The notes beneath the pieces were generated by a model that was given only the letters and a program-made list of their open reading frames with translations, was not told the origin of the DNA and made no database searches. Shown piece after piece: positions 168 through 25,756 of a stretch of DNA of 27,302 nucleotides. Numbering within the stretch: position 1 is the stretch's first letter; the number at the start of each line of letters is the position of its first letter. The translations under genes and the position numbers were made by a program. The stretch spans positions 1 through 27,302 of IMG/VR virus record IMGVR_UViG_3300043449_002391; one strand, given 5' to 3'. Source of the stretch: a virus.

Positions 168-188
168 GGGGTCTTAGACCCCTTTTTT
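168..188. terminator. Bidirectional Rho-independent terminator
   Basis: GGGGTC (168-173) pairs perfectly with GACCCC (177-182) around a TTA loop, followed by six T on the plus strand. An A-run at 164-167 gives a shorter U-run on the minus strand. It sits between two convergent genes and can serve both. The loop TTA is also the stop codon (TAA on the minus strand) of the ClpC-like gene, so the last codons of that gene form part of the hairpin. Confidence 0.85.
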
Positions 189-2231
189 CTTTTTAGTTTT
201 CTTTATCTCTGTAATTTTAACATTACCTTCTTCAGCAACCAATTCATATTCTTTATCTTCGGTTATATTTCCTTTTAGAACTTCTTCAGAAATATAATCC
301 TCAATTTTATCTTGAATGGCTCTCTTTAAAGGTCTTGCACCGTATGTCTCATCAAAACCTATTTCAGATATTAAATTAACAATAGAGTCGGTAAAATTAA
401 TTTTATATTTTAAACCAGTAAGTCGATTAGATAATTTATTTAATTCAATTTTAACAATCTCGGCAATTTGTTCTTTTTTAAGGTTGTTGAATACGATAAT
501 CTCATCAATACGATTTAAGAATTCTGGAGCGAAGAATTTCTTCAATTCCTTTTTCAACATGTCTCGTTTATATTCTTCCTCAATATATGAATTTGCCGCT
601 GATTTAAAACCAATACCTGAACCAAAATCCTGTAACATTTTAACACCGATATTTGATGTCATAATGATTACACAATTTTTGAAATTGATTTTTCTACCTA
701 AACCGTCAGTAATGTGACCATCATCCAATACTTGCAAAAGTGCTGAAAAAATATCTTTGTTTGCCTTTTCAATCTCATCAAACAATACCACAGAATATGG
801 TTTGTTTTTAACTTGTTCAGTTAATTGACCACCCTCATCATAACCAACATATCCTGGAGGAGCTCCAATCAAACGAGATATTGTATGTTTTTCTTGGAAT
901 TCTGACATATCCACTCGGATTAGATTATCCTCACTACCAAATATTTCTTTGGCGAGTTGTTTTGCAAGTAATGTTTTACCAACACCTGTCGAACCCAAGA
1001 AAATAAACGAACCAATTGGTTTGTTTGGGTCTTTAATTCCTAAACGGTTTCTCCTAATTGATTTTGATATTTTTATAACCGCCTCCTCTTGCCCTATAAC
1101 TTTTCCTGATAAATTTTTCTCAAGCTCGGTTAACAGTTTTGTTTCATCTGAATTTAATTTTGAGATTGGTATTTTTGTCATATTTGAAACAACTTCATAT
1201 ACTAATTCTTCGGTAACATCTCGTTTTGATAACAATAATTCACCTTCAAATTTCTTTTTCTCATCTTCAAGTTTACTCAAAATTTTCTTTTCTTTATCTC
1301 TTAGATTTGCGGCTTCCTCATAGTTTTGTTTTTTAACGACATCCAATTTTTGTTGTTTAATATCAGCAGCTTGTTTTTTTAGGTCATCGATAATCTCAGG
1401 CATTTTAATCTCAACTTGACTACGAGCACCAACCTCATCGATAATATCAAAAGCTTTATCAGGAAACTCCCTGTCGGTAATATATCGCTCGGCCAAATCA
1501 ACACATAAACTTAAAATGGGGTCAGAATATGATACTTTGTGATAAGTTTCATATTTATCTTTTGTGTTTTTTAGAATTTGTAGAGTTTCAGCCTTTGTTG
1601 CAGCATCAACTACAACTTTTTGGAAACGACGTTCCAACGCACCATCCTTTTCAAAGTTTTTACGATACTCGTCATTAGTTGTTGCACCCACACATTGAAT
1701 TTCACCACGAGCAAGTGCTGGTTTGAATATATTTGACGCATCCAAAGAACCCGATGAATTACCCGCTCCAACTATTGTATGAATCTCATCAATAAACACA
1801 ATTATGTTTGGATTATTTTGTAATTCCTCAATAATAACCTTCATACGTTCTTCAAATTGACCACGATACTTTGTACCGGCAACAATTGAAGTCATATCTA
1901 AAGAAACAATTCTTTTATCTTGTAGGTTTCTCGGACAATCACCTTCAAAAATTTTAATTGCCAATCCTTCAACTATTGCAGTTTTACCACAACCTGGCTC
2001 ACCAATAATGATTGGGTTATTCTTTTTTCTTCTAGATAAGATTTGAGCAATTCTTGTAATTTCTCGTTCTCTACCAACAACAGGGTCAATCTTACCCTGT
2101 TCGGCAAGTTTAATTAGGTCTCTACTAAAATTATCTAGTACAGGAGTACCACTGTCGCTAGCCTGTTTTGATTTTTTTCCTTCGTTATCCGCAGATTCTA
2201 TCATAACTGTTTTTTTTCTAATAATAACCAT
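174..2231 (-). CDS. ClpC-like AAA+ unfoldase without N-domain
   Basis: A 685-aa Hsp100 ATPase with two AAA+ modules. Module 1 has Walker A GEPGCGKT (77-84), pore loop KYRG (121-124), Walker B VFIDEIH (145-151) and arginine fingers near 201-202. A UVR-like coiled segment (about 300-325) separates the modules and points to ClpC rather than ClpA or ClpB. Module 2 has Walker A GSTGVGKT (413-420), pore loop GYVG (460-463), Walker [10 protein letters not shown] (481-489) and sensor-2 GARPLKR (631-637). An IGF tripeptide (540-542) sits where ClpC carries its ClpP-docking loop. Bacterial ClpC is about 810-850 aa; here the roughly 140-residue Clp_N repeat domain, which binds adaptors, is absent and replaced by about 30 polar residues. 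Inference: it unfolds proteins for host ClpP, possibly with changed substrate choice. The ATG at 2231 lies only 20 bp from the divergent KTSC gene. No clear promoter was found. Confidence 0.93.
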
Positions 2232-2524: not shown

Positions 2525-4717
2525 ATGAGTAATTTAAAAAGGATTTTATCAAGTTTTAAAGTTAGAGAAGAACTTAATCCAAAAGTTTGGACCAAAATTG
2601 ATGGTGAAGTTAAAATGAGACCTAACGTTAGACAGTCTCTATTAGATATCGCCAATGATTTCATTGAATTTTTAAAAGTAGATATTGTTGTGACAGATGT
2701 CATAATGACCGGCTCATTGGCTAACTTTAATTGGTCAAATTTTTCAGATATTGATTTACATATAGTTGCTGATTTTAGTCAGTTTAAGGAAGAACAGTTA
2801 GACTTGTATAAAGAACTTTTCACATTGAAAAAAACTTTATATAATGAAAAACACGATATAACTATCTATGGTTATGACGTGGAATTATACGTTCAGAATG
2901 AAACTGAAGCTCATTTTAGTAGTGGTGTATATTCGGTATTATTTGACGAGTGGTCTAACAAACCAAAAAAAGAAAATGTTGAAATAGACAAAGAGTTAAT
3001 CAAAACCAAGTCTGAAAAGTGGATGGAGATTATCGATGGTGTAATTGAAAACGCATCTGATGAGCCGTTTGAAAAAGCCAAAGAACTTATTAAAAAATAT
3101 AAAGACAAGTTAAAAAAATATAGGACTTGCGGTCTCGAAAAAAACGGGGAATACTCTGATGAAAATTTGGTTTTTAAAGTTTTAAGAAGAAACGGGTATA
3201 TTGAAAAACTACATAATTTTGCAGATAAATTAGTAGATAAGACATACACAATAAAAGAAGGTACCACAAGTATTGGAGGTCCTTTTAAAACGGATATTGA
3301 AAACGGTCCGTCAAATCACGGTAAAAGAGCGTTTGGTAATTGGCAATCAGATAATGCTTGGGATATTTTTGCACCTCCTGGTAGTGTTGTTAATTCATAT
3401 ACTGAAGGAAAAGTTACCAAAGTAAGAAATTCAAATAAAAGGTCTGGTAAAGTTTTTGGTACACAAGTATCGATTAAAGGTATAAATGGGTTTCCTGATA
3501 TTTTCTATACCCATTTGAAAAATGTTAAGATTAAACCTGGTGATGTTGTAAATCTCGGTGATTATATAGGGGAGGTTACTGAATGGTGTAAAGACGAATC
3601 ATGTACTGAAATGCATAGCGGAACACACGTACATCTTGGATTACCTAGAGGAGAACATTTAAGGGAATTGTTGAAAAATTCCGATAAAATATTTACAGGT
3701 TCTGAATCAAGTAATTATAGTGATTCACCAGAAGATGAAAAAAGAGAGGTGGAATCTTTAATACCTGAGGATGCGAAAGGTTTTATTGATGATTTAAAAA
3801 CATTATTAAATTCAAAAACCACTTTGACCAACATGAAAAAACTCGGTAAAACTATACCGTATGATAAAAATGTTGAGACCTTACAAACCGCATTACAAAT
3901 ATTGGGATTTTCTCTACCAACTTGGGGAGTAGATGGAAAATTTGGAAATGAAACTGAGCAAGCGGTTAAATCAGCCCAAGAAAAATTGGGTAAGGAACCC
4001 AATGGAGTTGCTGACCCTGAAATAATTAAATTAGTTGTATATAATGTCGCTGAAAACGTTTTAAAAAACAAAGATGTATTAAAAAAAATAAAAAAAACTA
4101 AAACACAAGAATTACCGGCCGACTCAGGAGAAAAAGAAAGTAATGATGTAACATCTACTACTGATAGAGAGTACGCCATTATAAGACCACAAGGATATAC
4201 AGGAAATAGAGTTCACGTTTTATTTGGTGGTGCTCATACATCAGGGTATTCAAAAAATAGCGCAAGACCTGACGCTATAAAAAAATATATAAATGTAATG
4301 ACACCATATGCTAACAATATTATCATAGTCGTTACACACCATATGAATACTTTGGGTAATGTAAGAGCCTACGTTAAAGAAAAATTTGGTGGTGAAGTTA
4401 CATCAATTGCCGGATTTTCACAAGGTGGTAAAGAAACTTGGGAGCACGCTGGTGATAGTACATTAAGTTTGGTCGGATTAATAGACCCGTCAACATATGC
4501 AACAGGAATATCTTTTGGTGCTAACACCATTCTATATTGTGACCCAAGAAATTGGGGAACAAGTGGATTTTATGGGCAAACAAGACGTAGATTAGAATGG
4601 TATTGTGAAAATAAAAATAGATACGGAGGAAAAGTTGTTTGTTTCAATCAGGGAGGTACACACATGAATTTCAAAATATTGAAATCATTTTATGAACAGT
4701 ATGGAAGTAAGATGTAA
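2525..4717 (+). CDS. Four-domain fusion: NTase-like / M23 / PG-binding / hydrolase
   Basis: A 730-aa protein from the ATG at 2525; a TTG two codons upstream is less likely. Domains in order: (1) residues ~55-125, nucleotidyltransferase-like, with GS (63-64), SDIDLH (74-79) and a later acidic DVELYV, the Pol-beta/MNT pattern; (2) ~250-375, M23/LytM metallopeptidase with NAWDIFAPPG, YTHL, KPGD and the zinc-binding HVH (368-370), but with Asp instead of His four residues before the first-motif Asp (280); (3) ~435-505, PG_binding_1-like repeat with GVDGKFGNETEQAVK; (4) ~548-730, alpha/beta hydrolase-like, with nucleophile elbow GFSQGG (Ser632), a candidate acid in LIDPS (Asp654) and GTHMNF (His713). 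No signal peptide. The middle part suggests peptidoglycan cleavage during entry or lysis; the roles of the two outer domains are unknown. It is monocistronic, with a weak AT-rich hairpin at its stop. Confidence 0.85.
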   Translation: MSNLKRILSSFKVREELNPKVWTKIDGEVKMRPNVRQSLLDIANDFIEFLKVDIVVTDVIMTGSLANFNWSNFSDIDLHIVADFSQFKEEQLDLYKELFTLKKTLYNEKHDITIYGYDVELYVQNETEAHFSSGVYSVLFDEWSNKPKKENVEIDKELIKTKSEKWMEIIDGVIENASDEPFEKAKELIKKYKDKLKKYRTCGLEKNGEYSDENLVFKVLRRNGYIEKLHNFADKLVDKTYTIKEGTTSIGGPFKTDIENGPSNHGKRAFGNWQSDNAWDIFAPPGSVVNSYTEGKVTKVRNSNKRSGKVFGTQVSIKGINGFPDIFYTHLKNVKIKPGDVVNLGDYIGEVTEWCKDESCTEMHSGTHVHLGLPRGEHLRELLKNSDKIFTGSESSNYSDSPEDEKREVESLIPEDAKGFIDDLKTLLNSKTTLTNMKKLGKTIPYDKNVETLQTALQILGFSLPTWGVDGKFGNETEQAVKSAQEKLGKEPNGVADPEIIKLVVYNVAENVLKNKDVLKKIKKTKTQELPADSGEKESNDVTSTTDREYAIIRPQGYTGNRVHVLFGGAHTSGYSKNSARPDAIKKYINVMTPYANNIIIVVTHHMNTLGNVRAYVKEKFGGEVTSIAGFSQGGKETWEHAGDSTLSLVGLIDPSTYATGISFGANTILYCDPRNWGTSGFYGQTRRRLEWYCENKNRYGGKVVCFNQGGTHMNFKILKSFYEQYGSKM

Positions 4718-13955: not shown

Positions 13956-14681
13956 ATGAATATGGAAGTTTTAAAACCAGGACAATCAGGAAAAGGTATT
14001 TTAATCGAATACGATGCAGGATATCTATCCCCAACTGAAAAACGTAATTCAGATTTAATACAAGAGTCTAAAGGAATGTTAGACCACTCAAAACCATTTG
14101 AGTTCTACGCTGTTTTGCAAAAATACAATACCCCAAACAGAAACGGAAGAATATACCCTGAAAAAGTATTAAAAAGAGAAGCCGACAATTATAAAAAAAT
14201 GATTAGTAAGGGTATTGCGTTATCTGAACTTAATCACCCTGAATCATCATTAGTTGACTTGGATAGAGTTTCTCACTCAATTAGTGATATATGGTGGGAG
14301 GGCCCTGTTTTAATGGGTAAATTAAAACTATTAACTTCACCAGGTTTTCACGAAAGAGGAATTGTTTCTACAAAGGGAGACCAAGCGGCAAATCTTTTGA
14401 GACAAGGAGTGACACTTGGTATATCATCTCGTGGTGTTGGGTCATTAAAAAAGATTGGCGAACAAAACGAAGTACAAGATGATTTTGAATTAATTTGTTT
14501 TGACCTTGTATGGTCACCATCAACTCCTGGCGCTTATCTTTTTACAGAGCCAGACGATAGATTTAAGTTTGAGGAAAACTTGGATGAGGAGAAAAAAATG
14601 AAAGCCGAGAGAGAATTTGGTGGGTCTCCTGATAAATCGCTTGACTTAATGAAAAAATTAAACGATTATTTGGGTTACTAA
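13956..14681 (+). CDS. Prohead core protease (T4 gp21-like)
   Basis: A 241-aa serine protease that matures the prohead by cutting scaffold and capsid proteins, and probably itself. Matching the gp21 (S80-type) pattern: NRNGRIYPEKVLKRE (61-75), a catalytic His in SELNHPESS (His94), the acidic VDLDRVSH segment (100-107), GPVLMGKLKLL strands, and the nucleophile segment LGISSRGVGS with Ser157 or Ser158. The C-terminal part is charged (EENLDEEKKMKAERE). Start: MNMEV has two ATGs, at 13956 and 13962. The order portal - small protein - protease - scaffold - capsid is that of T4, apart from the insertions noted. Substrate sites of the expected type can be seen in the capsid protein. Confidence 0.94.
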   Translation: MNMEVLKPGQSGKGILIEYDAGYLSPTEKRNSDLIQESKGMLDHSKPFEFYAVLQKYNTPNRNGRIYPEKVLKREADNYKKMISKGIALSELNHPESSLVDLDRVSHSISDIWWEGPVLMGKLKLLTSPGFHERGIVSTKGDQAANLLRQGVTLGISSRGVGSLKKIGEQNEVQDDFELICFDLVWSPSTPGAYLFTEPDDRFKFEENLDEEKKMKAEREFGGSPDKSLDLMKKLNDYLGY

Positions 14682-17564: not shown

Positions 17565-19406
17565 ATGGGAGCATTATTAGAATCAGGTCTTGTTGGTAAC
17601 ATTGGTCTTAAGCACCTTAAAGTTATCAAAGAAGATACTATTAACAAATGGGACAAATTAGGGTTCCTTGAAGGCCTTCGTGGTCACCTAAAAGAAAATG
17701 TGGCTCAGTTATATGAAAACCAAGCATCACATTTGATTAACGAAGCAACTTCTGACGGTTCTTCAGGTTCTTTTGAAACTGTTGTATTCCCAATCGTTAG
17801 ACGTGTATTCTCTAAGTTACTTGCTAATGACATTGTATCTGTACAAGCTATGAACTTACCAATCGGTAAATTGTTCTACTTCGTGCCAAAGATTCAAGGT
17901 TACAATGGTGGTACTGGTGGTTCAGGTGCCTTTGACCAAAATTCAGGTGAACACTATGCACCTGTAGGTTCTCCAGGTAACTATCCTGGTGACCCTAATT
18001 CAGGCTATACTACTGGTAATGGTACTTACAATGGTACTTACGCTAAAAATCTTTATGATTTATTCTATGAAGGTACTGAACCTGGATTGAGTCCTGCAGG
18101 TCTTTTTGATTATTCAAAAGGTCGTTGGTCTGCGATTACTGCTAACACAACTGTTGTTTCTTGGCAAAATGGTGCTTTAGCCGCCACTACTGGAACTTCA
18201 GGTAACGTTAGAAAAGTTATCATATCTCTTTGTGGTTTTAACGATTTAGGTTATGGTAAATTAATGGGACCTGATGGTAGTGAAATGGATACAGAATCAT
18301 TCTTATCAAACTTGATTGTTTATACAGGGGCCGGATTAGTTGTTGCGGCCGGTAGTCCATGTTCAGTATCTACAGGACCTCTTCTTTATAGAGTTGTTAC
18401 ACAACAATATGGTAGAGGTATAGTTAACCCTAACTACAACTCAACTACAACAGCTTGGCCTGGTAGTAACGGTGGTCAATGGGACACTGTATGTTCGGTT
18501 GATGGTTGTATTTATCTTGAAGTTGACCTTTCATGTCCAGCATGTCCTACTTGTGGTAATGATACTTTAGATGGATACACAGGAACAACAATCACTTCTG
18601 CGACTTCAGGAACTTCGTTTAATGCTGCTTGGAGACGTTATGAAGAATTAGAATTTGAAGACAAGATTGGTGAAGTTTCTTTCGACCTTGAGTCGGTAAC
18701 AGTTTCTGTAACTGAAAGAAAGTTGAGAGCACAATGGTCACCAGAACTTGCTCAAGACGTTGCAGCATTCCACAATATTGACGCTGAGGCTGAATTGACA
18801 GCATTGTTGTCAGAACAAGTTGCGGCTGAAATTGACCGTGAAATTCTTCGTGACCTTCGTAAAGGCGCAGCTTGGAATTTACGTTGGGACTACAACGGAT
18901 GGAGAAGAATTGCTAACACAACTTCTTACACTCAGAAAGACTGGAACCAAACTTTGATTACCGCAATCAACCAATTGTCGGCTCAAATCCACAAGTCAAC
19001 ACTTCGTGGTGGAGCTAACTGGATTGTTGTATCATCTGAGGTTTCTGCAATCTTCGATGACTTAGAATACTTCCACGTTTCTAACGCGTCACCTGAGCAA
19101 GACCAATACAACATGGGTATTGAGAGAGTAGGTACTTTAGCTGGTCGTTACCAAGTTTATCGTGACCCTTACTTCCCATCAAACCAAGTATTGATTGGTC
19201 ACAAAGGTACATCGTTACTTGATACTGGTTACATTTACGCACCGTATGTACCACTTCAATTAACTCCAACTATGTACAATCCATTCAACTTCACACCTAT
19301 CAAAGGTATCATGACACGTTACGCTAAGAAGATGGTTAACAACCGTTTCTACGGACGTATCACAGTTGATGGTGTACGTACATTTGACTTACAAGAACTT
19401 AGATAA
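17565..19406 (+). CDS. Major capsid protein (T4 gp23-like)
   Basis: A 613-aa capsid protein of the HK97 fold. The C-terminal half is clearly gp23-like: LRAQWSPELAQDVAAFHNID (about 387-406), AEAELTALLSEQVAAEIDRE, GRYQVYRDPYF (527-537), YIYAPYVPLQLTP and FYGRITVDGVRTFDL near the end. The N-terminus resembles the gp23 propeptide and has a likely prohead-protease site, HLINE60/A61, close to T4's cut after Glu65. The protein is about 90 residues longer than T4 gp23 (521 aa); the excess lies in a Gly/Ser/Thr-rich region (about 110-350) with a cysteine group at 310, 315, 324, 327 and 330. The leader is A-rich with no Shine-Dalgarno sequence. Its codons look more regular than those of the hypothetical genes, as expected for a highly expressed gene. 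It shares a transcript with the scaffold gene. Confidence 0.96.
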   Translation: MGALLESGLVGNIGLKHLKVIKEDTINKWDKLGFLEGLRGHLKENVAQLYENQASHLINEATSDGSSGSFETVVFPIVRRVFSKLLANDIVSVQAMNLPIGKLFYFVPKIQGYNGGTGGSGAFDQNSGEHYAPVGSPGNYPGDPNSGYTTGNGTYNGTYAKNLYDLFYEGTEPGLSPAGLFDYSKGRWSAITANTTVVSWQNGALAATTGTSGNVRKVIISLCGFNDLGYGKLMGPDGSEMDTESFLSNLIVYTGAGLVVAAGSPCSVSTGPLLYRVVTQQYGRGIVNPNYNSTTTAWPGSNGGQWDTVCSVDGCIYLEVDLSCPACPTCGNDTLDGYTGTTITSATSGTSFNAAWRRYEELEFEDKIGEVSFDLESVTVSVTERKLRAQWSPELAQDVAAFHNIDAEAELTALLSEQVAAEIDREILRDLRKGAAWNLRWDYNGWRRIANTTSYTQKDWNQTLITAINQLSAQIHKSTLRGGANWIVVSSEVSAIFDDLEYFHVSNASPEQDQYNMGIERVGTLAGRYQVYRDPYFPSNQVLIGHKGTSLLDTGYIYAPYVPLQLTPTMYNPFNFTPIKGIMTRYAKKMVNNRFYGRITVDGVRTFDLQELR

Positions 19407-19424
19407 TCTTATCTATAGTATATT

Positions 19425-19453
19425 AAAAAGGGACGAGAAATCGTCCCTTTTTT
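19425..19453 (+). terminator. Strong terminator of the capsid unit
   Basis: AAAAAGGGACGA (19425-19436) pairs with TCGTCCCTTTTT (19441-19452) around a GAAA tetraloop and runs into Ts. First of three hairpins after the capsid gene. Confidence 0.93.
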
Positions 19454-19461
19454 ATTTTATA

Positions 19462-19585: not shown

Positions 19586-19593
19586 TATTTATA
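19586..19593 (+). promoter_or_regulatory. Candidate late promoter TATTTATA
   Basis: Exact 8-mer in TTAATATATTTATATGG, 29 bases before the ATG at 19623 and downstream of the capsid terminators, so it should start the outer-membrane-protein message. Confidence 0.65.
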
Positions 19594-19622: not shown

Positions 19623-20414
19623 ATGAAAAAAATTATTCTATTTATTTTAACGATTATGGTGAGCATGTGTTCTTTTGCTCAACAATCTGTACAAGACACA
19701 ACTAAAACTGGCGGTTTATTTTTTAAACCCGCAAAAAAACAAAGTCCATTTACTAGCGAATTTGGAATTGCAACATCTAACTTATGGAGAGGGGTTGATG
19801 TTGGCAAACAACCCGTTATCAAAATGATTGCTGATTATCAACCTGTTGATTGGTTTACTTTAACTTCAGAGGCAAACGTAGTATACAATCAATTTAAAGA
19901 TGGCTATGGTAATACTATTAGAAACCAAGCAATGTTTAATATATATAACACATCTATTGGAGTTCAGGACTTATATTTCACTCAAAATACATTCCTACAG
20001 AGTGATACCTCATTTTTCCATTATGATAAAAAAACAACATCTCATTTTTTAGAAGCGGTTATTAAATACAAGGGAGATGCGAAAAGCAGAATTGACTTTT
20101 TGTCAAGTTATGTTTTTTTCCAAAACGAATCTTATAAAACAGGTGCATTATATTTTGAAGCTACTTATCATTTAGATTATAATGCGGATTTGTTTGTTGG
20201 GTATGTAACAGGAGAATCTCAAGCAAACTTCCAACAGAAAGGTGGGTTTACAAATGTTGGAGTTGTAGTTAAAAGAACCCTTCAGTTTTCTAAGACAACT
20301 GATGCAAATACAAGACTTACAATTATGGTTAATCCAATGTTTAGAACCGCAATTGTACCAAATTCAACAGTTGCTAATAGACCAGTAACCGCTAACTTAC
20401 AGATATTATTCTAA
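19623..20414 (+). CDS. Exported outer-membrane beta-barrel candidate
   Basis: A 263-aa protein with a typical signal peptide: KK, hydrophobic core 4-15, likely cut at SFA19/Q20. Cys16 does not sit in a good lipobox (Met before it), so it is probably not a lipoprotein. The mature part has alternating hydrophobic and polar residues in many short strands and ends LQILF, a C-terminal Phe typical of BAM-assembled barrels. SEFGIATSNLWRGVDVG near residues 45-61 resembles the start of the Gcw_chp/TIGR02001 barrel-like family. Inference: the product is placed in the host outer membrane or exposed at its surface, and could mask or remodel receptors, or act as a pore. It has its own promoter-like motif and terminator and begins a group of three exported proteins. 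A phage outer-membrane barrel would be uncommon. Confidence 0.8.
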   Translation: MKKIILFILTIMVSMCSFAQQSVQDTTKTGGLFFKPAKKQSPFTSEFGIATSNLWRGVDVGKQPVIKMIADYQPVDWFTLTSEANVVYNQFKDGYGNTIRNQAMFNIYNTSIGVQDLYFTQNTFLQSDTSFFHYDKKTTSHFLEAVIKYKGDAKSRIDFLSSYVFFQNESYKTGALYFEATYHLDYNADLFVGYVTGESQANFQQKGGFTNVGVVVKRTLQFSKTTDANTRLTIMVNPMFRTAIVPNSTVANRPVTANLQILF

Positions 20415-20433
20415 TATAAAAATAAAAAATATT

Positions 20434-20464
20434 AAAAGGAGGATGAAAATCCTCCTTTTTTTTT
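20434..20464 (+). terminator. Rho-independent terminator, GAAA loop
   Basis: AAAAGGAGGAT (20434-20444) pairs with ATCCTCCTTTT (20449-20459) around GAAA, followed by Ts to 20464. Ends the barrel-protein message. Confidence 0.93.
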
Positions 20465-20529
20465 CGACATACTTTGTTAAATAATCGATATAAAAACTTT
20501 AACAAACAAAATCCAATTAAATTATTAGA

Positions 20530-20537
20530 TATTTATA
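20530..20537 (+). promoter_or_regulatory. Candidate late promoter TATTTATA
   Basis: Exact 8-mer in TTAGATATTTATATATG, 15 bases before the nuclease ATG at 20553. It would serve both nuclease and subtilase genes, which are 22 bp apart with no motif between them. Confidence 0.65.
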
Positions 20538-20552
20538 TATGAATTATATGAT

Positions 20553-21137
20553 ATGAAGTTTATATTTTTTAAAATTTTTTTATTATTGTCTGTTTTATCA
20601 TTCGGGCAATTAAGAGATTCAATTTACATTAAAACAACAATTTTTGATATTGTTTATTCTGAAAAATTACAGCAACCAAAATGGATTGAATACTATGTTA
20701 AATGCTCTGATGGTAATATTTCTCGTAAGGGGTTAGATTTTTATGCTTGTGATTCGATTAAAACTTCCGACCATAAAGATTATGAAAATAATGTCTATGA
20801 CAAAGGTCATTTAGCCCCCGCTGCAGACTTCAACTGCAGTAAAGAATCCTTAAAATTAACATTTTCTTATTTAAATTGTGTTTTACAACATGAAAGATTA
20901 AATCGTGGTGTTTGGAGATTACTAGAATCTTATGAAAGAGAATTATCAAAAAGATATAATGTTGTTGTTGATATAAGAATGGTTTATAGTAAAAATTCAA
21001 TCATTTTACCAACAGGGGCCACAGTTCCTGATGCTTTTATAAAAACAATAAGATATGCAAATAAAGAAGAAATATATTATTTTAAAAACGGTATACCCGA
21101 ATATAATGATTTTAAAAAATATATTCGAGTTAAATAA
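20553..21137 (+). CDS. Secreted DNA/RNA non-specific endonuclease (NUC1 type)
   Basis: A 194-aa beta-beta-alpha-metal nuclease with a signal peptide (hydrophobic 3-17, likely cut at SFG18/Q19). The active-site segment is YDKGHLAPAADF with the general-base His86; the family usually has DRGH, here DKGH. The magnesium-binding Asn117 and the acidic Glu125 in RLNRGVWRLLE are spaced as in Serratia nuclease (His-Asn about 30, Asn-Glu 8), so the enzyme looks intact. The family cuts single- and double-stranded DNA and RNA. Export would put it in the periplasm or medium, away from the phage's own replicating DNA. Possible jobs are destroying DNA of competing phages during entry, clearing extracellular DNA after lysis, or nutrient recovery. 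It shares an operon with the subtilase. Confidence 0.9.
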   Translation: MKFIFFKIFLLLSVLSFGQLRDSIYIKTTIFDIVYSEKLQQPKWIEYYVKCSDGNISRKGLDFYACDSIKTSDHKDYENNVYDKGHLAPAADFNCSKESLKLTFSYLNCVLQHERLNRGVWRLLESYERELSKRYNVVVDIRMVYSKNSIILPTGATVPDAFIKTIRYANKEEIYYFKNGIPEYNDFKKYIRVK

Positions 21138-21159
21138 ATAAATTAATTAATCTTAAAAC

Positions 21160-23484
21160 ATGAAAAAAATCGTTCTATTACTCACATTTTGTCTATCCTT
21201 TATTTTTGGATACAGTCAATATGACCTATCCAAAAACATTGATAGACAAGTCATGGTGGTTCCCCAAAAAGGTATGGAATCACAAACTCAATCTTTTATT
21301 AAAGAAAACAACGCTCAGATTGTTGCAAATTTTGAGCAACTTGGATGGTATGTTGTATTACTACCTGAAAACTTAACTCAAGATTCATTTGTTAGGTCAT
21401 CTAAGGACCTACCATTTATTAAAGAGGTTTATAAAGACCAAAAGGTTGAAATGAAGTTGGACTATATTCCAAATGACGTTGAATTCAACCAATGTTGGCA
21501 TCTTAAACAATCTACGGATAAGGATATTGATGCTGATGAGGCTTGGGACTTGGTTCCGGCAAATAATCCAACAGTTAGTGTTGCAATGTTTGATGGAGGA
21601 CTTGATTTAACTATTCCTGATTTGGCTGGAAACACAACAAATCCATTTAACGCAGTTAACAGCACAACTAATATTCCTTATGTTAATTCTTTTGACAAAC
21701 ACGGAACAACTTGTTCAGGTACTATTGCCGCGGTTACAAATAATAGTATCGGTGTTAGTAGTGTTGGTAATAACAAAGTAAAGGTAATGCCTGTTAACAT
21801 TATGTCTCAGGTTTTTGACGGAGGTAGTTTCCAAACATCAGATGTGATTCAGATTAATGGTGTTAATGCCGCGATGGCTAATCCAACCTGTGTTGCAATT
21901 GCAATGTCATATGGTGGTTCATCGTATTCATCGGCATTAGACGCTGCTTTCCAATCGGCAAGAACAACGGCAAGGGGTGGTAAAGGTATGGTTGTAGTTG
22001 CATCGTCTGGTAATCAATATTCAGGAACTGCCGCTCAGTATCCTGCAAATTATAGTGGTGTTTGGGGTATTGGTGCAACATCACAAAGTGACTTTAAAGC
22101 AAGTTTTTCTAACTTTGGACAAATTTGTGATATATCCGCACCTGGCGTTTCAATTAGAACTGTCGATAGACCAGGAACTGCAGGATATAATTCGGGTGAC
22201 TACACCTCAATAAGTGGAACATCATTCTCTTGTCCGATATTTGCGGCTTCAGCGGCATTTTGTTTTTATAAGAATTGGGAATTAACTGATGACCAAGTGT
22301 TACAAATATTATCTCAAACCGCAGAAAAAGTTGGTGGGTATAGTTATACAAATAATCCAACTTGGCCATATTCTACAAGAAGTAATGAACTTGGTTATGG
22401 TAGAATTAATTTGAGAGATGCAATCAACTCAACACCAAATCCGGGAGGAGATGTACCACCTCCACCACCACCATCACAAATACATAATTTTGTAATTAAT
22501 ACTTTAACTATTAATCCAACATCGGTTCTTGCTAATGCTAGTATTACTATAACCGCAACAATTGCAACTCAAAATCCTTCATACCCTGCGGTTAATGTGA
22601 TGACTCAACATAGATTATCAACTAATACAACTTGGGGTGATGCTGATGATATTATTATTGGTACAACCAGTGGTACTCTTGGGGGTGGAGTTGCAACTGA
22701 TGTTGAAACTTTAACATATAATGTTGGAAATACCTCAGGGTTAAGATACATTATAAGTAGAGTAAACTATATGGGTTCAGTATCTGAGACCATATCCACA
22801 GATAATACAAAACAATCAAGTTTTACAATCACTCAACCGGCAGTTACAGGAGCGGATTTATCTTTAATTATAACTTCTCCATTGTCAGGGAGTATAACAG
22901 TTCCATCATCTCAAGCCGCAGTATCTTTCCAATGGAAAGTTACAAACACAGGTTCAGTTCCTATTACATCATTTACTTGGAGAAGAACTTGGGTTGATTG
23001 TTCAGGGTATACAAATCCATTAAGTCCCTGTGGTTCAGTGCTGACTTGGCCCACATCAACTTCTTGGCAAGGACCGTTATTACCGGGGCAATATATATTT
23101 TTACCTGGAGGAGGAACCCCAACAAACCCTATTGGTGCTTCTTGGAGTTCGTCCCAAGTTTGTTTTAGTTCAACAAGTTGTGCAATTCAACCTGGAGGTA
23201 CTAACATAATGAGAGTTACAATTCTAACTGTAAACGGAGGAACAGGTGATACTAATTTAAATAATAATCAAGTTGATTGTACGGTTAGTAGATTAACAAC
23301 CGCAACAAACAATGATGTTACATCAGATATTGATTATGTTGAGGTTAGACAATTTAGTAAACTGTATGAAAATCCTGTAAGATATAAGACTATGGAAGAA
23401 GCAATACTTGAAAAAGGACTTAATATAATCCACATCCATTACTCTGATGGAAGAATAGAAATTAAAAAGATTTCTATCAATTAA
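21160..23484 (+). CDS. Secreted subtilisin-like protease (S8) with Ig-like tail
   Basis: A 774-aa exported protease. Signal peptide 1-19 (cut before Gln20), then an inhibitor-type propeptide (about 28-100). The S8 catalytic domain (about 110-425) has Asp145 (VAMFDGG), His181 (DKHGTTCSGTIA), oxyanion Asn285 (VVVASSGNQ) and Ser355 (SISGTSFSCP); all four key residues are present. A proline linker (433-438) leads to two Ser/Thr-rich Ig- or CARDB-like regions (about 440-560 and 565-705). The last ~45 residues include YENPVR and a closing SDGRIEIKKISIN, which resemble a shortened type IX secretion sorting domain. Inference: displayed on or released from the host surface, where it may cut surface proteins, receptors or extracellular matrix. 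It ends before a bidirectional terminator. A phage gene of this kind was probably acquired from a Bacteroidota cell. Confidence 0.92.
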   Translation: MKKIVLLLTFCLSFIFGYSQYDLSKNIDRQVMVVPQKGMESQTQSFIKENNAQIVANFEQLGWYVVLLPENLTQDSFVRSSKDLPFIKEVYKDQKVEMKLDYIPNDVEFNQCWHLKQSTDKDIDADEAWDLVPANNPTVSVAMFDGGLDLTIPDLAGNTTNPFNAVNSTTNIPYVNSFDKHGTTCSGTIAAVTNNSIGVSSVGNNKVKVMPVNIMSQVFDGGSFQTSDVIQINGVNAAMANPTCVAIAMSYGGSSYSSALDAAFQSARTTARGGKGMVVVASSGNQYSGTAAQYPANYSGVWGIGATSQSDFKASFSNFGQICDISAPGVSIRTVDRPGTAGYNSGDYTSISGTSFSCPIFAASAAFCFYKNWELTDDQVLQILSQTAEKVGGYSYTNNPTWPYSTRSNELGYGRINLRDAINSTPNPGGDVPPPPPPSQIHNFVINTLTINPTSVLANASITITATIATQNPSYPAVNVMTQHRLSTNTTWGDADDIIIGTTSGTLGGGVATDVETLTYNVGNTSGLRYIISRVNYMGSVSETISTDNTKQSSFTITQPAVTGADLSLIITSPLSGSITVPSSQAAVSFQWKVTNTGSVPITSFTWRRTWVDCSGYTNPLSPCGSVLTWPTSTSWQGPLLPGQYIFLPGGGTPTNPIGASWSSSQVCFSSTSCAIQPGGTNIMRVTILTVNGGTGDTNLNNNQVDCTVSRLTTATNNDVTSDIDYVEVRQFSKLYENPVRYKTMEEAILEKGLNIIHIHYSDGRIEIKKISIN

Positions 23485-23502: not shown

Positions 23503-23530
23503 AAAAAGGAGGAGTAATCCTCCTTTTTTT
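23503..23530. terminator. Bidirectional terminator, GTAA loop
   Basis: AAAAAGGAGGA (23503-23513) pairs with TCCTCCTTTTT (23518-23528) around GTAA. Ts on the right serve the subtilase gene; the A-run on the left serves the convergent minus-strand gene, whose stop is at 23533. Confidence 0.93.
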
Positions 23531-23532
23531 AT

Positions 23533-23805: not shown

Positions 23806-24519
23806 ATGTTAAGGGATACTATAAAAAAAATTTTACATGAAGCATCATCAGATTCAGGAGGTGCTGGGGCGTATATAAGTCCATTAGAACCGGGGTTACG
23901 TAAATTTAATAAAAATATATTATCTCCATTTATTGAAGAAGTATCCGAATACAATGATGCTATGTTAAATTATGATAGTTTAGATGGGTCAATGTCTGTT
24001 AGTAAATCAAAAGCAAAAACATTAGAAAAAAAAGCACAAAAAATGTCCAATTTAATTAAAAAAAATCCTGATTTGTTGGCTCAGGAAGATGAAGGAGGAT
24101 TACTTAATACACAACCACAAAAGATATCAGAGTGGGTTGAGATAAACGAGGAAACGATTTCAGAAGACCTTGCAGTATGGTTTGGTACCAAAAAGAAACC
24201 AAAAGGGAGCAGTCAACCAAAAGGTCCTTGGGTAAATATATGTAGAAAAAAAGAAGGGGGTGGTCATCCTCCTTGTGGGAGACCTGAAGCAGATTCAAAA
24301 GGATATCCTAAATGTAGAGCAGCAGGAGTGGCGGCTAAAATGACAGATTCACAAAAAAGAGCCGCTTGTGCTCAAAAAAGGAAGGCTGAAAAAAGTAATC
24401 CAAAGTCAGGTACAGGTAATTCTCCAACTATGGTTTCGTATAAACCAAAAAAAAAGACTCAAAATGAGTCTTTAGAACTTTTAATAAATAAGATACTTAA
24501 AGAAATTATTCAGAAGTAA
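23806..24519 (+). CDS. DUF5872-like basic protein
   Basis: A 237-aa protein. It begins MLRDTIKKILHEASSD, one of the short N-terminal helices ending in Leu-x-Glu seen in this window. Residues about 60-90 look coiled-coil. The part from about 125 to 210 is strongly basic: GPWVNICRKKEGGGHPPCGR, GYPKCRAAG, MTDSQKRAACAQKRKAE, ending SPTMV. This order of motifs resembles DUF5872, a family found in phages and large viruses, with cysteines that could bind zinc. Its function is unknown; nucleic-acid binding is a guess from charge. It ends with a helix ESLELLINKILKEIIQK. Its last 14 bases overlap the convergent gene's end, with no terminator between them. Confidence 0.82.
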   Translation: MLRDTIKKILHEASSDSGGAGAYISPLEPGLRKFNKNILSPFIEEVSEYNDAMLNYDSLDGSMSVSKSKAKTLEKKAQKMSNLIKKNPDLLAQEDEGGLLNTQPQKISEWVEINEETISEDLAVWFGTKKKPKGSSQPKGPWVNICRKKEGGGHPPCGRPEADSKGYPKCRAAGVAAKMTDSQKRAACAQKRKAEKSNPKSGTGNSPTMVSYKPKKKTQNESLELLINKILKEIIQK

Positions 24520-24993: not shown

Positions 24994-25485
24994 TTATTTT
25001 TTCTTTTTTGTAAAAATAATCGCAGCCTCAGTAACTGTTAAAACCGCGATTGCCGGTAACCAAGCACCTGTTATACCACCAAGTGCTAACCCAACAACCG
25101 CAACACTTGTACATAATGTTGATTTTTTCCATTTTTTAATAGATTCACTTTGGTGAATTGTGGTAACCTCGTTTTTTAACTGGCTTACTTTCAAAGTATC
25201 AATAAGTTGGAAATATCTTTGTGATAGTAGATTGTAATCGTAATCGGCTCGTTCTATTTGACTTTTAAGATATTTGTTATCATTTTTTAATGAATCTGAT
25301 TCTGATTTACAATTTTCTAGTTGACTTAACTTTTCTAAAAGTCTAACTTCTTGTTTTTTTGTGAAGAAAATACCCGAATCACCTTTCAGTATTATCCTTT
25401 TTGGAAGTTCTTTTTGCCCATATACTATCACGCTTTGAATCAGTATAATACTCAGTACAATTAACTTCATTAGTAACTTGCTCAT
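24994..25485 (-). CDS. Exported coiled-coil protein with C-terminal membrane hairpin
   Basis: A 163-aa protein; the ATG at 25470 (residue 6) gives a neater signal peptide, cut at VYG/Q. After that comes a charged coiled coil (about 45-110, QEVRLLEKLSQLENCKSESDS...), then two closely spaced hydrophobic stretches (about 123-158) and a KKKK end. A signal peptide plus coiled coil, with its start inside the upstream gene that also has a membrane anchor and helical region, resembles the architecture of overlapping spanin pairs used in the last step of lysis. There is no lipobox, so it is not a standard o-spanin; the C-terminal hairpin could replace the lipid anchor or fit a holin-like role. Function tentative. 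Confidence 0.78.
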   Translation of the reverse strand: MSKLLMKLIVLSIILIQSVIVYGQKELPKRIILKGDSGIFFTKKQEVRLLEKLSQLENCKSESDSLKNDNKYLKSQIERADYDYNLLSQRYFQLIDTLKVSQLKNEVTTIHQSESIKKWKKSTLCTSVAVVGLALGGITGAWLPAIAVLTVTEAAIIFTKKKK

Positions 25486-25756
25486 TTTTTACTACTATTA
25501 TTTCTTTTGGTTTACTAACTACCTTAACAAAAACTGTATCTTTCTTAACAGTTTTTTCATTATCTAATAATAGTAATTTTTTTTCATAATTCAACATTTC
25601 GATGCTATCATTCAGTTTTGTAATAATTTTCTCGGTTTTTACTGTTTGTTTTGGAACTACATTATAAACCTTATTAACTTTTTTTGGTATGGTTATAATG
25701 TACAATAAAAGCCCGAGTATTACTGAATAATACCAATATTTTTTTAAAAACTGCAT
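25379..25756 (-). CDS. Membrane-anchored coiled-coil protein (spanin-like candidate)
   Basis: A 125-aa protein with one N-terminal transmembrane segment (about 8-23, SVILGLLLYIITI) after a short basic end, followed by a polar, probably helical part (KIITKLNDSIEMLNYEKKLLLL) and a basic C-terminus. The layout equals an inner-membrane i-spanin with a periplasmic coiled coil. It overlaps the following gene by 107 bases in another frame, as Rz/Rz1 genes do. No endolysin or holin lies directly beside it, although the fusion protein at 2525-4717 has peptidoglycan-cleaving domains. It starts 12 bases after the stop of the 26245 gene, in the same minus-strand operon. Confidence 0.75.
   Translation of the reverse strand: MQFLKKYWYYSVILGLLLYIITIPKKVNKVYNVVPKQTVKTEKIITKLNDSIEMLNYEKKLLLLDNEKTVKKDTVFVKVVSKPKEIIVVKNEQVTNEVNCTEYYTDSKRDSIWAKRTSKKDNTER

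Follow-up and report, generated by a model that had tools for sequence, protein, structure and literature searches.

Why would a large T4-like phage place genes for exported proteins directly behind the gene for its major capsid protein? The question is raised by the virus record IMGVR_UViG_3300043449_002391 of IMG/VR, whose 27,302 nucleotides (27.3 kb, probably a fragment) are called the window here. The window encodes a T4-like head module, consisting of the terminase large subunit, the portal protein gp20, the prohead protease gp21 and the major capsid protein gp23 (17565..19406, plus strand; Pfam Gp23, 3.1e-74). Behind gp23 it carries three further plus-strand genes, for a barrel-type protein of 263 amino acids (aa) (19623..20414), a NUC1-type DNA/RNA non-specific endonuclease of 194 aa (20553..21137) and a subtilase of 774 aa (21160..23484). 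Our comparisons show that gp23 is followed by a cargo slot of variable content, and that the nuclease and the subtilase are a conserved unit within a close family, whereas the trio is not a natural unit. The phage is a large T4-like one with a host inferred to belong to Bacteroidota, and its exported enzymes may serve to spare progeny from loss on the envelope and debris of the producing cell, a reading that we favour only tentatively.

Export of the three proteins is well supported by their N-termini. As the original prediction had stated, three consecutive signal-peptide genes lie behind the capsid gene: their open reading frames (ORFs) are intact and the signal peptides are visible, at about residues 1-19 in the barrel-type protein, 1-18 in the nuclease and 1-19 in the subtilase. 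All three N-termini show a charged start, a hydrophobic stretch, a small-residue site and then Gln; with cleavage sites assigned by eye, the peptides are MKKIILFILTIMVSMCSFA, MKFIFFKIFLLLSVLSFG and MKKIVLLLTFCLSFIFGYS, each followed by Gln. Among 47 distinct NUC1 homologues, 44 were called exported by a crude signal-peptide rule that overlooked at least one clear example (L049:2759, 798 aa; L numbers denote contigs and loci), and the remaining three (L128, L129 and L161 types) likewise start with a hydrophobic stretch. Signal peptides are retained in NUC1 relatives with rather different N-termini, down to approximately 53% identity.

The active sites foreseen for both enzymes proved to be intact. 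The nuclease matches PF01223 at 2e-24 (86.9 bits, cut-off 23), which places it in the NUC1 family, and its residues H86, N117 and E125 are invariant in 23 of 23 aligned sequences and also align with EXOG. The subtilase matches PF00082 at 9.2e-32, and the four residues originally named for it (Asp145, His181, Asn285 and Ser355) were correct, being invariant in the 13 rows of one alignment and the 20 relatives of another; with the profile match, the Asp-His-Ser triad and the oxyanion Asn, it qualifies as an S8 peptidase. Its order is a signal peptide, a propeptide-like stretch, the S8 domain (residues 138-414), a beta-rich region and a short C-terminal domain, and the structure model has a mean predicted local distance difference test score (pLDDT) of 69. 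The subtilase matches mirolase of Tannerella forsythia (PDB 8ehe) in sequence (E 2.4e-23) and in fold (template modelling score 0.66 by target length). Mirolase is a bacterial enzyme and ranks 24th in the fold list, where other subtilases and furin score higher; its source organism presumably belongs to the same phylum as the inferred phage host. Two search patterns returned 45 bacterial relatives of the subtilase; their best segments share only 23-37% identity with it, so none of them looks like a recent donor. The 3'-terminal 1.5 kb of the subtilase gene is 96-100% identical between the window and contig L152, against 68-80% in the regions 3' of the gene and 73-96% from gp23 to the subtilase, with parts of gp23 also reaching 96%. 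This pattern suggests a recent exchange of the subtilase.

Both enzyme families are rare in phages, as had been assumed for exported forms in tailed phages: with the window proteins as queries and an E value of 1e-5, NUC1-like matches turned up in 12 of 50,697 phage records and subtilase-like ones in 21, with export looked at in few of them. Many phages carry NUC1 with neither barrel nor subtilase nearby. NUC1 genes with signal-peptide-like starts occur in Xanthomonas phage XaC1 (L309:1225-1917) and Yersinia phage GN1 (L310:1192-1947), large phages of other hosts, in Proteobacteria. Flavobacterium phage immuto, which is in culture with Flavobacterium sp. LMO8, encodes a NUC1 protein (NC_055915 gp012) that is 52% identical to that of the window, has a signal peptide and is followed by three more exported proteins. 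Unlike the window gene, it has no subtilase or barrel neighbour and lies far from gp23, two genes behind a ribonucleotide reductase gene and among replication genes, which suggests another timing there. In the four loci tested (L133, L134, L136 and L139), an endolysin-type Amidase_2 gene is found at a distance of two genes from NUC1, in the opposite orientation.

A scan of viral contigs for gp23 gave at least 598 relatives, 80 of which were kept; the relatives derive from metagenomes. The slot is bordered on the left by gp23 and on the right by g13 (23806..24519, plus strand), a conserved gene of unknown function whose PHROG matches are function-unknown families, and across the loci compared the interval between the two may measure as little as 77 bp or reach about 8 kb, with genes that differ among the loci. 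Subtilases of at least 59% identity were found in 23 contigs, and every one of the 23 has NUC1 immediately upstream in the same orientation, with 25-85 nt between the tblastn matches. Many of the contigs that carry the pair are near-identical strains, so that independent cases are fewer than these counts. The pair stands beside gp23 in 19 of the 23 contigs; in the other four the fetched flank holds no gp23, and two of these have only about 6 kb upstream. Six further contigs have NUC1 without a subtilase in the slot (L014, L017/L101, L096, L097, L099 and L100), and L098, a possible seventh, ends too soon to tell. More distant subtilases (44-55% identity) occur in 13 contigs. The barrel gene was found in 14 contigs of a close clade only, each time with gp23 before it and NUC1 behind it, and 9 of the 23 contigs that carry the pair lack it. 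The original prediction of one integrated system is thus not supported for the trio, since the barrel was found only in a close clade and NUC1 often occurs alone; linkage beside gp23 holds for most cases of the pair, and in part the genes are scattered in relatives, as in immuto and the four pairs with no gp23 in the fetched flank.

Exported proteins are repeatedly found in this slot. Counted by gene, they make up 82 of 237 plus-strand and 9 of 37 minus-strand slot genes against 24 of 862 elsewhere, figures inflated by near-identical contigs; counted by family the comparison is 16/57 versus 10/72 (p 0.05), and by gene without the trio 18/168 versus 24/871 (p 2e-5). Where g13 is absent from a contig, the slot was extended to the contig end (or over 9 kb in the family counts and in those without the trio), and other genes are possibly included in these numbers. 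Several otherwise different slot proteins have in common an N-terminal tag like MKKLYFLDEEEKNRILNLHESATKRQYLxEQ (for example L077:3187-4074, L019:13880-14959 and L093:13005-13688), which is reminiscent of the T4 capsid-targeting sequences described in the available part of PMC3012670; a loose form of the pattern matched 48 slot proteins, some of another, helix-turn-helix-like kind. Behind the subtilase, L149:12398-22310 is an open-ended 3304-aa open frame with a Laminin_G_3 domain, and L150:10029-17525 is a 2498-aa open frame. Pfam identifies L094:13811-14830, 3' of the nuclease-subtilase pair, as glutamine synthetase, and L150:17773-18795 and L156:9802-10824 are look-alike ORFs.

The barrel-type protein is remotely related to Gcw_chp outer-membrane proteins, as judged by profiles. 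It matches no Pfam or NCBIfam family, its best PHROG match has an E value of 0.22, and its sequence has no match in the PDB up to E 10. No match was found in the phage collection, and none of 263 pattern matches in genome contigs was genuine. A seven-row profile of phage barrels was run against 395 Bacteroidota genomes and matched in 9 of them (best 1.3e-7). Of these ten matches, L281 and L282 were dropped (short matches, 1032-aa open frame) and eight were used. Two of the eight bacterial relatives match Gcw_chp (PF09694), a family that we take to have an outer-membrane porin role and that Pfam lists as of unknown function. Comparison of the phage and bacterial profiles by hhalign gave a Prob of 98.8 and an E value of 4.3e-17 over 190 columns; the bacterial set had been picked with the same phage profile, which leaves the Pfam label as the independent evidence. 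The link is thus a remote profile match, with no direct Pfam match to Gcw_chp for the window protein or two phage relatives and none in NCBIfam for the window protein. In phage and bacterial barrels alike, an R-G pair follows an aromatic residue close to the N-terminus and the last residue is Phe; this terminal Phe, part of the original case for a barrel, is kept in all seven phage rows. Two bacterial relatives adjoin transporter genes, a MIP-family channel (L279) and an ammonium transporter (L278), which suggests small-solute porins. Structure prediction was uninformative: the AlphaFold2 model, built from seven similar rows (76-87% identical to the window), has a pLDDT of 34.9, and its all-beta pattern was dropped as evidence.

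The three genes are laid out as two transcription units, the barrel alone and the nuclease with the subtilase, each with one upstream TATTTATA motif and bounded by terminator-like hairpins. By direct sequence reading, a hairpin with a T run lies 3' of gp23 (19425..19456), and others follow the barrel gene (20434..20465) and the subtilase gene (23503..23531), all on the plus strand. The plus-strand motifs stand at 19586..19593, 37 nt 5' of the barrel ATG, and at 20530..20537, 23 nt 5' of the nuclease ATG. The subtilase gene has no motif of its own and starts 22 nt after the nuclease gene; we therefore count two units and not three. The motif itself is genuine: the window has 10 sites against 4.2 expected from shuffles, nine of them within 80 nt upstream of a gene start (0.36 expected), and in 13 relatives, with mechanically called ORFs, 82 of 138 sites lie within that distance upstream of a start (5.2 expected). 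It looks like a promoter element. The same motif precedes the terminase gene, the portal gene and the gene just before gp23 (a scaffold by position, with no Pfam match), and the trio therefore probably belongs to the same timing class as these genes. The late type assigned to it earlier holds only in that sense of a motif common to virion genes. The T4 late promoter consensus, found near -10 on the coding strand, reads TATAAATA; in front of the barrel and nuclease genes the coding strand carries TATTTATA, its reverse complement, and no TATAAATA was found there in coding orientation.

Export by the host type IX secretion system (T9SS) is well supported among relatives by sorting-signal profiles. 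Contig L028 has five exported genes in a row in the slot. Among their products are another kind of subtilase, which has SprB repeats and ends in a T9SS type A tail (Por_Secre_tail, E 3.1e-11), and a second SprB/Por_Secre_tail protein. The tails of eight distant subtilases align with 16 Aquimarina T9SS tails (hhalign Prob 95.2, E 2.8e-8), which served as a yardstick and came from 20 loci (L257-L276) passing a custom motif filter; four control segments gave E values of 0.15-0.68. When seven distant tails were compared with TIGR04183 (cut-off 23 bits), one scored above (L249, 25.6), four below (14.8-20.5) and two were unmatched. Whole phage records, chosen for holding relatives of the trio genes, were scanned against 14 control genomes. 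Type A signals scored over the cut-off in 4 of 8 phage records and 1 of 14 controls by TIGR04183, and in 2 of 13 and 0 of 14 by PF18962; type B signals did so in 11 of 15 phage records and in none of the 14 controls. A 322-kb relative carrying the trio encodes two type B proteins. Two small proteins, L094:8243-8578 and L246:5521-5862 (111 and 113 aa; type B scores 37.0 and 32.8 bits, cut-off 35), contain little beside their signal peptide and their type B sorting domain and are possible decoys for the host secretion system. A cluster of exported proteins of about 185 and 190 aa, each with its own signal peptide, occurs at L304:638-1767, L305:641-1767 and L301:345-2618 (the last also with one of 381 aa); the member of about 190 aa ends in a type B sorting domain and others in a common ISHD/ISHN motif, and the cluster resembles a surface adhesin divided among several polypeptides.

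The C-terminal tail of the window subtilase (23302..23481, plus strand) occupies the position of the type A tails in distant relatives and has in common with them a Gly-hydrophobic-DG-K pattern. The protein also has the Sec signal peptide expected of type A cargo, by reading, by the crude rule and by conservation. We considered it as type A cargo and do not file it as such, because neither Pfam, NCBIfam nor hhalign demonstrates that the tail is a sorting domain.

How, then, might these proteins serve the phage? In the explanation that we prefer, with less than even confidence, enzymes exported during virion production would remodel the envelope, shave receptors, clear DNA and so spare progeny. 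The nuclease would act in the periplasm and later in the lysate, the barrel would insert into the outer membrane as a porin-like channel, and the subtilase would act at the cell surface, perhaps carried by the host T9SS as its distant relatives probably are. There it would strip receptor proteins, and at lysis the enzymes would meet debris and DNA, so that progeny would not be wasted on the producing cell, on debris or in DNA tangles; exclusion of late-arriving rival phages would be a side benefit. We count in favour of this explanation the invariant catalytic residues, the retained NUC1 signal peptides, the pairing in all 23 contigs and the motif common to virion genes. The L028 cargo, the distant T9SS tails, the T9SS counts in phage records, the Amidase_2 genes near NUC1, the NUC1 genes of XaC1 and GN1, and the origin of mirolase in what is presumably the host phylum count likewise.

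Several observations weigh on the other side. The barrel is not a constant partner of the pair, and NUC1 is found in the fetched flanks of only 2 of the 13 contigs with distant subtilases, close by and on the other strand. Late timing is deduced solely from motif sharing, and the NUC1 gene of immuto lies with replication genes. Counted by family without the trio, exported proteins are 9 of 44 in the slot against 10 of 72 elsewhere (p 0.44), and our claim is therefore one of a variable slot with repeated exported cargo, not of proven enrichment. The window subtilase, whole or as its last 160 residues, matches neither TIGR04183 nor PF18962; by hhalign its tail aligns with T9SS tails at E 0.038, and an internal control segment does so at 0.044. 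A profile of this tail matched 8 of 16 phage records, each time the subtilase itself and no other kind of protein.

The same facts can be read in other ways. Superinfection exclusion, as first proposed for the trio, would have the protease trim receptors, the barrel alter the outer membrane and the periplasmic nuclease destroy the injected DNA of rivals while being kept apart from the phage's own replicating DNA. Export, active sites and slot diversity fit this, and the available text on Cryophage makes the same guess for its T9SS cargo (PMC7468147); yet the inconstant barrel does not, and many exclusion proteins are said to be early in the part of PMC9586334 consulted, whereas the trio has the motif of virion genes. 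According to that text, Llp of phage T5 is an early superinfection-exclusion lipoprotein that blocks the receptor, and proteins such as Llp are said to stop both secondary infection and adsorption to lysed fragments (PMC9586334). Llp resembles the proposed role of the trio as a phage-made envelope protein that removes receptor function with a double benefit; it differs in being an early, blocking lipoprotein, whereas the window has enzymes with a virion-type motif and a putative receptor target. Expression with virion genes fits early exclusion less well than the protection of released progeny, and we consider exclusion rather unlikely as the principal role. Nutrient scavenging, in which the exported nuclease and protease would digest external or periplasmic macromolecules and a porin would admit the products for phage synthesis, draws on the transporter neighbours of the bacterial barrels, on the glutamine synthetase gene of L094 and its look-alikes, and on the ribonucleotide reductase gene close to immuto NUC1. 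No such metabolic gene was recognised among the scanned genes of the window, however, production together with capsid genes would be late for feeding replication, and the barrel is absent from the nine pair contigs mentioned above; we regard scavenging as unlikely.

A role confined to lysis and matrix clearing, with the enzymes thinning the lysate and degrading extracellular DNA and protein so that progeny spread, would agree with the motif common to virion genes, with the four neighbouring Amidase_2 genes and with enzyme families of broad specificity. Lysis frees cytoplasmic enzymes too, so the signal peptides and the surface-directed relatives would need another reason, unless the phage would simply suffer too much from a nuclease and a protease in the cytoplasm, and this explanation appears quite improbable. 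Least probable is that the three are virion components or injected proteins merely looking exported. Their genes do lie directly behind gp23, and other slot proteins bear the tag resembling capsid targeting, but the trio lacks it and has instead hydrophobic signal peptides, kept in NUC1 relatives even at about half identity.

Some of these elements have precedents. Phage-encoded T9SS cargo is already known: Cryophage, a 76-kb phage inferred to infect Bacteroidetes, carries three variable genes for type A cargo, an endoglucanase, a GH39 enzyme and a PA14 protein, for which superinfection exclusion was guessed in the portion of the paper at hand (Bellas et al. 2020, PMC7468147). Like relatives of the window, it has variable phage genes encoding proteins for export by the host T9SS. 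Unlike the window, no nuclease-protease pair or gp23-side slot is mentioned in that portion (PMC7468147), and a T9SS tail is not demonstrated for the window protease. Beyond this study we found no direct precedent for exported nucleases, proteases or T9SS cargo of phages in the open-licence literature, mostly titles and abstracts. The accessible part of a jumbo-phage survey (PMC7824862) does not mention signal peptides, secreted proteins, subtilisin, endonuclease G or the periplasm, nor does that of a paper on Baltic Flavobacterium phages (PMC7077304) mention immuto. The excerpts consulted contain no statement that Flavobacterium phages need the gliding machinery, and this argument was left unused. 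As far as our searches show, the NUC1-subtilase pair and its gp23-side exchange slot in large T4-like phages are new, and the same holds for the Gcw_chp-like barrel and for how often type B signals occur.

Elsewhere in the window, the prohead protease of T4 gp21 type belongs to the head morphogenesis module (13956..14681, plus strand; PF03420, 1.2e-24), which a ClpB-like AAA+ ATPase adjoins (174-2231, minus strand). One minus-strand protein (2525-4717) has weak nucleotidyltransferase, M23 peptidase and peptidoglycan-binding matches. Two small overlapping minus-strand genes (24994-25756) encode a protein with a signal peptide and a coiled coil (best Pfam match weak, 0.042) and one with an N-terminal membrane stretch, a layout that we read as like that of a spanin or holin pair.

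It is possible, if doubtful, that large Bacteroidota T4-like phages run a host-surface programme, comprising routine Sec-exported proteins of T9SS types A and B, a gp23-side exchange slot for exported enzymes and capsid-tag-like proteins, and a subtilase-NUC1 pair displayed via the host T9SS as a module that destroys receptors and clears DNA, with a role like that of the receptor-destroying enzymes of animal viruses. Were this so, the surface-export machinery of hosts in an abundant bacterial phylum would be commandeered late in infection by their lytic phages, with enzymes replacing blocking proteins, and the variable block adjoining the capsid gene would be explained. It would also allow a direct test of how phages keep their progeny from being lost on debris, and provide secreted nucleases and proteases matched to Bacteroidota hosts. 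Type B T9SS signals, present in most of the phage records scanned, may mark Bacteroidota hosts of uncultured phages.

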